A stretch of DNA of 64,000 nucleotides from an uncultured Alphaproteobacteria bacterium (lineage in GTDB: Bacteria; Pseudomonadota; Alphaproteobacteria; Methylaequorales; Methylaequoraceae), in the NCBI GenBank assembly GCA_902550225.1, contig CACCYL010000003.1, forward strand, positions 70,213 through 134,212, read 5' to 3'. The notes beneath the pieces are model-generated. The model did not search any database, was not told the origin of the DNA, and saw only the letters and a program-made list of their open reading frames with translations. A program made the translations under genes and the position numbers. How positions within the stretch are numbered: position 1 is the stretch's first letter; each line of letters begins with the position of its first letter. Shown here piece after piece: positions 31,448-35,017 of this stretch.

Positions 31448-32632
31448 CTAGACTTTCTTAATTAGAAATTGACCAACATTGATATTACCAGATTTAAAAC
31501 CTCCCTCACAATATCCTAAGTAATAGTTCCACAGTCTTTTAAAATTTTCACTGAAACCTAAGCTTTTTATACAGCCCCATGAATTCTCAAATGACTCAGA
31601 CCATATTCTTATTGTTTTAGCGTAGTCATTTCCAAACATTTTTTTATTTATGATATGAAGGCCTCTTGATGTTATTACCTTATTCATTTCCTCTACTGAG
31701 GGAAGCATACCACCCGGAAATATATAGGTTTGGATAAAATCTGGAAACTTTTTATATTTTTGAAAAAATTTATCCTCAATTGTAATTGTCTGAAGCCCTA
31801 TAGATCCGTCAGACTTTAAGTTTTTCTTTAGAACATCAAAGTATTTTGACCAGTATTTTTCTCCAACTGCCTCAAACATTTCTATAGAAACAATTTTATC
31901 ATATTTACCGTTAATATTTCTGTAATCTAGAAGTTTTACATCAACCTTATCTGTGAGCTTATCATCATATATTTTTTGCTTTGCTTTCTCATACTGTTTT
32001 TTAGAAATTGTAATTGCTGTCACATTTGCTGAGTATTTTTTTGCTAAAAAAGAAGAAAAACCTCCCCAACCACATCCTATTTCAAGTATTTTGTCATTTT
32101 CTTTTATACCCGTAATATTTGCAAGATTCGCATATTTATTAATTTGGCCTTTATGAAGGTTGTCCTGAGGATTCTTAAACATAGCTGATGAATATGTCAT
32201 TGATTCGTCTAACCATTTTTCGTAAAACGAGTTGCCTAGATCATAGTGAAAAGATATGTTCTTTTTAGATCCGGACCTGCTATTTTTTTTTAAGTGATGC
32301 TTAAGCCTTAAATACAAAATGGTGAACCATTTTCCTCTAACATATTTTGAAAATTCATGAAAATTTCTTGCACCCCATTCGAGAAAGTCAGTGAGGTTTG
32401 ATGTTTCCCAATTTCCGTCAACGTAACTTTCAGCCCAACCAAGGTCACCTCTTAAAAAAAAATCACTAATGCATTTATCTTTTAAGATTTTTATATTTGC
32501 ATCAGGTCCCGGGAGCTCTCCCTTAAAAGATAATATAGACTTATTATCCTTATAAACATTTATTGAGCCGTATTTACTCTGTGCTAATACATTTAAAAAT
32601 AAATTTAACTTACTTTGAGTGTTAAAAATCAT
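31448..32632 (-). CDS. Cyclopropane-fatty-acyl-phospholipid synthase family methyltransferase
   Basis: ISFHYDLGNSFYEKWLDESMTYSSAMF, ILEIGCGWGGFSSFLA, FPGGMLPS. Confidence 0.93.
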   Translation of the reverse strand: MIFNTQSKLNLFLNVLAQSKYGSINVYKDNKSILSFKGELPGPDANIKILKDKCISDFFLRGDLGWAESYVDGNWETSNLTDFLEWGARNFHEFSKYVRGKWFTILYLRLKHHLKKNSRSGSKKNISFHYDLGNSFYEKWLDESMTYSSAMFKNPQDNLHKGQINKYANLANITGIKENDKILEIGCGWGGFSSFLAKKYSANVTAITISKKQYEKAKQKIYDDKLTDKVDVKLLDYRNINGKYDKIVSIEMFEAVGEKYWSKYFDVLKKNLKSDGSIGLQTITIEDKFFQKYKKFPDFIQTYIFPGGMLPSVEEMNKVITSRGLHIINKKMFGNDYAKTIRIWSESFENSWGCIKSLGFSENFKRLWNYYLGYCEGGFKSGNINVGQFLIKKV

Positions 32633-32638
32633 TTATTG

Positions 32639-33391
32639 CTAGCCCCCTGAAAAAAAATTTTTTGGTTTTTTTGGTTTTTTAATATATGTTGCACCCTTTA
32701 TAAAAAGTTTCAAGGCTTCTAAGTGTATCGCAATTGTAGCTTTGAAATTTTGAAAGATATTACTAAAGAATATTCCCAAGAGATTTTTATCATTCATTTC
32801 AACTGATCTTCCCCTAAACGATGCTTCGAAAATTTTTTGCTTATTTATATTATAATTTATAAACAAATTCACGAAACTTTTATCAATATTGAAAGTAATA
32901 ACATAATGGCCATTTATATTAAAAAAAGGAGAAACGTGAAATTTTTTTTTTACATTATTTTGTTTATTTATTTCACAATAATATGAGTGTCTTTCGTTGA
33001 ATGTATTACTAACTTCATATATTATAGCAGTAGCTTTATCTTTATCGTCAAAACCTACAAAAACTGTTATTGGGTTAAACACATAACCTAAAATTCTAGG
33101 CAAACAAAAAGACTTGATATCATAGACATTTTTTTTACCTTCTTGTAAAAATTTTTTTTTTAATAATTGATATGTATTATTTGATTTTTTACCAACTTCT
33201 CCATGATCTTTGTCGTAGAATGAAAATAAAGTAAATCTATTTTTTTTAAAAAATTTATATTGGTGTTTAAAGTTCAATGAAAACCAAAAATAACAAAAAC
33301 GATAATTAAATGAATGAGTAAAAGGTTTATACCTTGTATGTGAAACAATACCCTGAAATAAAGTATCAGTTATATTGTTAATTTTTCTCAT
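32639..33391 (-). CDS. DUF1365 family protein
   Basis: LFQGIVSHTRYKPFTHSFNYRFCYFWF...LPRILGYVFNPITVFVGFD. Confidence 0.9.
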   Translation of the reverse strand: MRKINNITDTLFQGIVSHTRYKPFTHSFNYRFCYFWFSLNFKHQYKFFKKNRFTLFSFYDKDHGEVGKKSNNTYQLLKKKFLQEGKKNVYDIKSFCLPRILGYVFNPITVFVGFDDKDKATAIIYEVSNTFNERHSYYCEINKQNNVKKKFHVSPFFNINGHYVITFNIDKSFVNLFINYNINKQKIFEASFRGRSVEMNDKNLLGIFFSNIFQNFKATIAIHLEALKLFIKGATYIKKPKKPKNFFSGG

Positions 33392-34634
33392 TGTTTCTTT
33401 CCAATATTTTTTTCACAACATTCAATGCAGAAGTAATTCCGTCCTCATGAAAACCGTAACCTAAGTATGCTCCACAAAACCATATGTTTGTATTTCCTTG
33501 TATGGTTGTTATTTTTTTTTGATTTTCAAATGTATTTAAATCAAACAATGGATGGTCATAATATATTTTTTTAAATATTTTTTCCTTAGATGGTAAAATA
33601 GAAGGATTAAGAGAGACAAAAATATTTAAACCAGTATTCAGTTTTTGAAGTTTATTCATCCAATATGTAACGTTTACACCTCTTTTATTACTTTTATTTT
33701 CAATATAATTCCAGCTTGACCATGCTTTTCTTGATTCTGGCATTAGCTTTTTGTCAGAATGTACATAAACCTTATTTTTGGTATACTTTATATCTTCAAA
33801 CATCTTTTTTTCTTCTTTTTTTAAATTGATAATTTTTTTTACCTGATCTGAATGAACTGCAATTACAAGATGGTCATATTTTTTTTTTTTACCTTTCACA
33901 TCCAGAAAAATTTTATTTTCTTTGCTATATAAGAATTTTACAGAGCTGTTTTTATATGCTGAGATATTTTTTGACTCAAGAATTTTTTCAACATAGTTCT
34001 TACTTCCATCCAAAACAGTTCTCCATTTTGGGCGATTAATAATTTTAAGAAGCCCGTGATTTACAAAAAACATTACCAACTTCTCAAATGGATATTTTTT
34101 AATTTCATTGATTCCAGAGGACCAGATACTAGCTGCCATTGGGTAAAGATGTTTGTATTTGTAATAGTCAGAATAGTTTTTTAAATCCAAATATTCTTGA
34201 ATTGTATAATTTTTATATTTTTTAATATGCTTTTTAGCTAACAAATTAAAAGACACAATTTCAAACAACATTCTCCAAAAATTAAAATTTAGTAAATTTT
34301 TCTTTTGAGAGAATAATGATGATAAATTAGTTCCTGAATATTCGATATTATCAATCTTATTAGAAACAGCAAATGACATATCACTTTCATAAGATTTAAC
34401 ATTTAACTCCTCAAAAAGTTTGCATAGATTTGGGTAGTTAATTTCGTTGAATACAATAAAACCAGAATCAACATTAATAATTTTCCCTCTATATTTGATT
34501 GATTGTGTGTGGGTATGTCCACCAAAGTAGGAGTTTTTTTCAAAAAGGTCCACTTTATAATTCTTAGACAAATAATACGCACATGATAGACCTGAAATAC
34601 CACTACCGACTACAGCAATCTTAAAATTCCTCAT
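33378..34634 (-). CDS. FAD/NAD(P)-binding amine-oxidase-like protein
   Basis: IAVVGSGISGLSCAYYLSKNYKVDLFEKNSYFGGHTHT; C-terminal FCGAYLGYGFHEDGITSAL. Confidence 0.92.
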   Translation of the reverse strand: MRNFKIAVVGSGISGLSCAYYLSKNYKVDLFEKNSYFGGHTHTQSIKYRGKIINVDSGFIVFNEINYPNLCKLFEELNVKSYESDMSFAVSNKIDNIEYSGTNLSSLFSQKKNLLNFNFWRMLFEIVSFNLLAKKHIKKYKNYTIQEYLDLKNYSDYYKYKHLYPMAASIWSSGINEIKKYPFEKLVMFFVNHGLLKIINRPKWRTVLDGSKNYVEKILESKNISAYKNSSVKFLYSKENKIFLDVKGKKKKYDHLVIAVHSDQVKKIINLKKEEKKMFEDIKYTKNKVYVHSDKKLMPESRKAWSSWNYIENKSNKRGVNVTYWMNKLQKLNTGLNIFVSLNPSILPSKEKIFKKIYYDHPLFDLNTFENQKKITTIQGNTNIWFCGAYLGYGFHEDGITSALNVVKKILERNNEKN

Positions 34635-34689
34635 AAAATAATATTATGAGAAAAAAAAGGAAATAAAACAAAATAAATCAATATATTGT

Positions 34690-34718
34690 TTGACTTTCAA
34701 TCTTTATTACTATATATT
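34690..34718 (+). promoter_or_regulatory. Sigma-70-like promoter for small transcription unit
   Basis: TTGACT at 34690-34695, 17-bp spacer, TATATT at 34713-34718. Confidence 0.5.
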
Positions 34719-34732
34719 GATACTGAACTAGT

Positions 34733-34807
34733 ATGATAATAACAAAATTTTGTGCAATAACATTCTCTTCAATTTTTTTGTTATTACTAGTTTCAAGTCT
34801 ATTTTAA
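34733..34807 (+). CDS. Putative 24-aa hydrophobic small protein (or sRNA; coding status uncertain)
   Basis: ATG...TAA reads MIITKFCAITFSSIFLLLLVSSLF; about 15 nt downstream of the promoter -10 and 8 bp before a strong terminator; no clear SD. Confidence 0.4.
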   Translation: MIITKFCAITFSSIFLLLLVSSLF

Positions 34808-34814
34808 TTTCCTC

Positions 34815-34846
34815 CAATAAAACCCTAGTTTACTAGGGTTTTATTG
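34815..34846 (+). terminator. Rho-independent terminator
   Basis: CAATAAAACCCTAG-ttta-CTAGGGTTTTATTG, 14-bp perfect stem followed by TTTT. Confidence 0.85.
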
Positions 34847-35017
34847 TTTTCTGTAAATTGATATCCAGTGAGTTGAAAGACATTTAATGTCTAAATTTTC
34901 AGATGTTCCCGAAGTAAGCAACTCCGAGGTATTATAATTTTCAAGATCCTTTTTAAATGAAAAACTAGATTTACTTCTGTTTCTGTCAAATCTAAGATTT
35001 TGAATTAAGTTCAACAT
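34841..35017 (-). CDS. Putative 58-aa small protein
   Basis: MLNLIQNLRFDRNRSKSSFSFKKDLENYNTSELLTSGTSENLDIKCLSTHWISIYRKQ; same strand as and downstream of 35054..35368; below the ORF-track length cutoff. Confidence 0.35.
   Translation of the reverse strand: MLNLIQNLRFDRNRSKSSFSFKKDLENYNTSELLTSGTSENLDIKCLSTHWISIYRKQ

Follow-up and report, generated by a model that had tools for sequence, protein, structure and literature searches.

A conserved small RNA of the HIMB59 clade that probably encodes a membrane peptide and represses by base pairing

Small RNAs of the AbcR and NfeR1/CCUCCUCCC family in Alphaproteobacteria carry a CU-rich anti-SD motif that is complementary to Shine-Dalgarno sequences. 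The RNA described here, which is encoded by marine Alphaproteobacteria of the HIMB59 clade, differs from these sRNAs in having the motif UUUCCUCC instead of CCUCCUCCC and a conserved open reading frame (ORF), and in Rfam searches at the gathering score and at E ≤ 10 no family exceeded its gathering score for this RNA.

Several described RNAs combine a small protein with regulation or with a translationally occluded message. VcdRP from Vibrio cholerae is longer than 300 nt and strictly Hfq-dependent, contains a 29-aa ORF whose peptide binds citrate synthase, and uses a C-rich stretch near its 3' end to bind the translation-initiation sites of carbon-uptake mRNAs (PMC8672173). The HIMB59 RNA resembles VcdRP in having its own promoter and terminator and a small ORF followed by a conserved C-rich stretch, with both ORF and seed being conserved; however, with an estimated length of about 122 nt it is much shorter, no Hfq was detected in its hosts, its peptide is hydrophobic, and its putative seed overlaps the last codons and the stop. 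The likeness is one of architecture, and no sequence relationship is claimed. SgrS/SgrT is also a regulatory RNA encoding a small protein, but there the pairing sequence is conserved and the ORF is present in a subset of species only (PMC8672173), whereas nearly all homologues of the HIMB59 RNA have the ORF. The type I toxins AapA and Hok likewise are small hydrophobic peptides with an initiation region that is sequestered intramolecularly (PMC6733600, PMC8309996). In contrast to these, the HIMB59 unit is a single-copy core gene for which no antisense RNA promoter was found and whose peptide has a C-terminus that is not cationic.

A stand-alone gene at a fixed locus

The gene lies in a window of 64,000 nt, which is the whole stretch of DNA that was analyzed, and consists of a promoter (34690–34718), an ORF (34733–34807), and an intrinsic terminator (34815–34846), all on the plus strand. 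The initial annotation had recognized the promoter TTGACT-N17-TATATT, which is of the sigma70 type, and we find it in all 26 homologues as TTGAC(T/A)-N17-TAT(A/G)TT with a spacing of exactly 17 bp, while the letters of the spacer vary freely. A scan of this AT-rich DNA gave 24 promoter-like sites where 26.4±5.1 were expected, so that a consensus match alone is no evidence and the case is decided by the relatives; TTGAC-N16-18-TATA(A/T)T sites number just nine in 1.22 Mb. Transcription would start near 34725 and yield an RNA of approximately 122 nt, close to the length of about 120 nt first proposed.

Just upstream of the −35 box is the near-palindrome CAATATATTG (34679–34688), and a second copy, CTATATATTG (34710–34719), overlaps the −10 box. 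Both copies of this C[AT]ATATATTG element, 31–32 bp apart, are recognizable with small variations in the 26 homologues and look like a candidate operator pair, whose influence might extend to the divergent operon. Beyond the window, G000:C4 has a close pair of strong promoter-like sites, near 69115 and 69576, whose spacers contain GCGCAAT/TGCGTA-type repeats.

The terminator comprises 14 perfect pairs, a loop of 4, and a U-rich tail, shows compensatory changes at the loop side of its stem, and is the sole terminator-like site in 4 kb. The perfect 14-bp stem thus stands as first described, but the stem begins 7 nt rather than 8 bp after the stop, because the last C of UUUCCUCC is also the first base of the stem. 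On the minus strand the gap is occupied as well, and the same element lies at the 3' end of a convergent gene there. This previously unlisted convergent ORF of 58 aa (MLNLIQNLR...HWISIYRKQ; 34841–35017, minus strand) is a neighbor outside the RNA; it occurs across much of the family with the consensus MLNLI.NLR.DR...SFK.DL.N..TSEL...W..IYRKQ, was recovered at 18 of the 23 loci examined for it, its stop lying inside the terminator arm, and matches no model in Pfam or NCBIfam.

Built on 25 sequences, a covariance model identified the RNA gene in 28 of 32 family genomes, at one locus each. A second copy in G044 is near a contig end, as is the first, and looks like an assembly overlap. The four genomes without the RNA gene also have no orthologue of the adjoining FAD gene, indicating that the whole locus is unassembled or lost there, and loss of the RNA gene alone was rejected. 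Outside the family, the model found nothing convincing in 385 genomes of the class (the only scores, 37 and 28.7 bits, are consistent with chance), a profile of the peptide gave a single weak match, with an internal TGA, in 240 class genomes, and viral contigs contained no match to the gene. Family-wide the gene keeps a fixed position next to, and pointing away from, the gene of an FAD/NAD(P)-binding oxidoreductase, and its placement divergent from a lipid-modification operon (FAD-DUF1365-CMAS), as proposed initially, is conserved in relatives. That this is a real gene is, in our judgment, close to certain.

The NAD(P)/FAD oxidoreductase, DUF1365, and CMAS methyltransferase encoded at 31451–34634 on the minus strand resemble UfaD, UfaO, and UfaM, which are responsible for furan fatty acid synthesis (PMC7380195), and it is possible that members of the HIMB59 clade synthesize furan fatty acids by means of this operon.

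The encoded peptide and the fold of its RNA

The ORF runs from an ATG at 34733 to a TAA at 34805–34807 on the plus strand and encodes the 24-aa peptide MIITKFCAITFSSIFLLLLVSSLF, exactly as had been read from the window; we analyzed it by coding test, codon table, and hydropathy. The peptide has a GRAVY of 2.1; across homologues it is 23–24 aa long, has one lysine or arginine near its N-terminus and is hydrophobic in the rest, and its ORF ends in SLF-TAA in every case. On the basis of hydropathy it is predicted to form a single transmembrane helix. No Pfam or NCBIfam profile matched it, a comparison in which a query of 24 aa has little power.

The frame is intact in 26 homologues with zero indels, and no other forward frame stays open throughout, both alternatives being broken by stops in some or all sequences. 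Among 24 distinct sequences, the synonymous share of codon differences is 0.444 compared with 0.174±0.057 in column permutations (0/1000), and the differences have a BLOSUM62 score of +2.13 against 0.04±0.44 when permuted. Serine codons alternate between the TCN and AGY types. An ATG is often present at codon 2 when codon 1 is a different triplet (L005, L008, L009, and L015), and one genus combines ATT as its first codon with an in-frame GTG upstream. In one genome (G006, locus L004:1709-1839:-) the start codon has changed from ATG to GTA together with a S13P replacement, while hairpin and seed are kept; this sequence reflects either an error of single-cell sequencing or a version of the RNA that has no peptide. 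A minus-strand ORF overlapping the invariant region was rejected, since it has in-frame stops in distant relatives (L019, L020, and L023). We consider it very likely that the peptide is translated and under selection; a small membrane protein is thereby well supported, and insertion into the membrane is what its hydropathy leads us to infer.

A stretch of 133 nt folds far better than its shuffled versions (z = −6.2), and covariation along the structure is 0.207 compared with 0.140±0.007 after shuffling (0/500) and at most 0.103 when the structure is slid along the alignment. Helix 1 joins the leader just upstream of the AUG (34725–34732) to a 3' arm within codons 18–21 (34786–34793), both on the plus strand, with 98% of cells paired and double changes at three of its eight pairs. 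Helix 2, between an A-rich and less conserved 5' arm (34738–34747) and a 3' arm at 34776–34785 on the same strand in the covariation alignment, is weaker, with 87.6% of cells paired, double changes at one pair, and register shifts in distant members. In 25 sequences the predicted unpaired probability of the leader is 0.06 on average and at most 0.18, so the region in front of the start codon is predicted to be occluded, and we regard it as likely that the hairpin between leader and codons 18–21 controls translation. Both the reading frame and the RNA structure are clearly conserved in relatives, the comparison by which the initial annotation proposed to judge the unit.

The invariant segment and its candidate target

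Between the hairpin and the terminator lies AGUCUAUUUUAAUUUCCUCC (34796–34815, plus strand), a candidate base-pairing segment made up of the last codons, the stop, and the linker to the stem. Only 1 of its 20 columns varies among 25 sequences, as opposed to 17 of 20 third codon positions; elsewhere in the RNA, 10 of 11 columns of the leader and all six of the tail are variable. The single variable column is among the 12 of the last codons and stop, and none of the eight linker columns varies. Because these eight positions follow the stop, the invariance goes beyond what coding alone accounts for. The segment is also predicted to be exposed, with a mean unpaired probability of 0.87 for UUUCCUCC in the 25 sequences. 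An sRNA, which the initial annotation had listed as an alternative to a membrane protein, is supported by selection on the RNA structure and by this exposed 3' segment, and the two hold together rather than excluding each other.

AGUCUAUUUUAAUUUCCUCC is complementary to a Shine-Dalgarno sequence followed by AUGGAY, its UUUCCUCC part being the mirror of a strong Shine-Dalgarno sequence. GGAGG is rare in front of genes here (41/1224), and pairing of the segment with it would therefore be selective. Apart from the RNA gene itself, near-full complements of the seed are confined to the starts of aldehyde dehydrogenase (ALDH) genes within the genus and to a scatter of chance sites. In the window's genome, with gene starts called crudely, the ALDH start forms the best duplex by energy of 1222 start regions, at −26.8 kcal/mol, and when two other genera were each scanned with their own RNA, ALDH again took first place, among 374 sampled start regions in one and 405 in the other. 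Duplex energies over 24 ALDH starts range from −18.7 to −32.1. For ALDH, the seed's flanks around UCCUCC contribute to this, with a median of −23.05 compared with −15.8±1.9 for shuffles (0/500, or 5/500 with one sequence per genus), figures that have to be read in light of the fact that the ALDH sequences are related, so that their agreement is not independent, and that AUGGAY also codes for Met-Asp. Other genes with GGAGG show no flank effect (30/100), and with the anti-SD of the 16S tail as a query ALDH ranks only 65th–271st. When seeds were shuffled in their flanks while keeping UCCUCC, 8 of 240 were as good as the best match in G000, which is only modestly unusual and no more than suggestive. 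A second candidate, glnA, with ATTGGAGGAAAT shared by three genomes from the window's genus, was rejected because it fails the shuffle control (53/300).

The predicted ALDH duplex is bipartite: UUUCCUCC pairs with GGAGGAA(A) and, after a gap of variable length, GUCUAU pairs with AUGGA(U/C), that is, the start codon and codon 2. The latter pairing would explain the near-fixed nucleotides of the last codons, AGU CUA UUU. The ALDH gene heads an Aldedh-DUF485-SSF operon, in which DUF485 and an SSF symporter gene follow in the arrangement of actP-type uptake operons. Hfq was detected in none of the 19 family genomes (G000–G018) and in all 12 other alphaproteobacteria searched, making an Hfq-dependent mechanism unlikely; ProQ was likewise detected in none of the 19. 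Overall, target pairing is moderately supported: base pairing in trans is probably a function of the RNA, and ALDH is, by a narrower judgment, the favored partner.

Three of these results are at odds with the RNA being a small mRNA only, in which a hairpin controls a membrane peptide and the role of the invariant 3' segment is in stabilizing the RNA, in termination, or in binding a protein: the linker is invariant though it has neither a coding nor a stem role, ALDH is first in three genera with complementarity of the flanks beyond the SD, and one genome has lost the ORF start and kept seed and hairpin. We hold this reading to be rather unlikely, with the strong coding signal, a hairpin that would be sufficient for control, and the failure to detect Hfq and ProQ in the family all in its favor, along with the facts that UUUCCUCC complements any strong Shine-Dalgarno sequence and that in one genome the best target stands out only modestly from UCCUCC-keeping shuffles (8/240).

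The initial annotation also considered a type I toxin-like peptide, meaning a small hydrophobic toxin made from a folded, translationally inert mRNA and countered by an antisense RNA. A peptide of 24 aa, under about 60 aa and hydrophobic, does fit membrane-associated toxins (PMC8309996), and their mRNAs typically sequester the SD through intramolecular pairing (PMC6733600), but this suggestion is not borne out by a gene that is single-copy in each genome, at a fixed, family-wide locus, with no minus-strand promoter-like site for an antisense RNA within 34650–34900 and with the C-terminus SLF where a review lists a cationic C-terminus as a general feature. Even with an antitoxin possibly encoded in trans or produced by read-through from the convergent gene, we regard a toxin as improbable. 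Still less credible is a purely non-coding sRNA with a fortuitous ORF, because frame-specific synonymous substitution is incompatible with chance, although RNA structure and seed are conserved and L004 has no start codon. An attenuator or leader peptide acting on a gene farther downstream, which a short ORF with a terminator directly after it might bring to mind, hardly merits consideration, being already contradicted by gene order: no same-strand gene directly follows the terminator, the ORFs that come next are read from the minus strand, and not until 37800 does a plausible plus-strand gene start.

A proposed dual-function RNA in streamlined cells

We propose that this is a dual-function RNA, a messenger for a membrane peptide and a base-pairing repressor, and assign this reading a probability of roughly 0.6; one small RNA would thus probably do two jobs. 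Our analyses revealed a conserved promoter, coding selection, a covarying hairpin, an invariant segment predicted to be exposed, and, in three genera, a predicted complementarity that is strongest for one and the same gene. The proposed course of events, including transcription, translation, membrane insertion, repression, and the physiological role of RNA and peptide, is what we infer from them. A transcript of about 122 nt from the stand-alone gene would encode a single-helix membrane peptide of 23–24 aa, whose translation would be held down by pairing of the leader with codons 18–21. AGUCUAUUUUAAUUUCCUCC, exposed between hairpin and terminator, would pair in trans with translation-initiation regions and block ribosome binding, the best-supported target being the ALDH mRNA of the Aldedh-DUF485-SSF (ActP-like) operon.

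The pairing segment spans the last codons, the stop, and the linker, and would thus be under a terminating ribosome, while translation would require the hairpin over the start region to open. A tentative extension, which we offer as doubtful but worth stating, is that the RNA is a self-contained switch that serves either as mRNA for the peptide or as repressor of the ALDH/solute-uptake operon, never both, and does so independently of Hfq or ProQ. If true, such a switch would operate in free-living cells that are among the most streamlined.

Nearly all genomes of this ocean clade, which is abundant and largely uncultured, have the gene, unannotated, and its product would define a new peptide family that, at less than 30 aa, is missed by standard annotation. 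It offers a concrete, testable case of dual coding and regulation in cells that have no detectable Hfq or ProQ. If the pairing with ALDH is true, an RNA of 122 nt would connect the uptake and oxidation of carbon with a membrane peptide and would represent an independent parallel to VcdRP.
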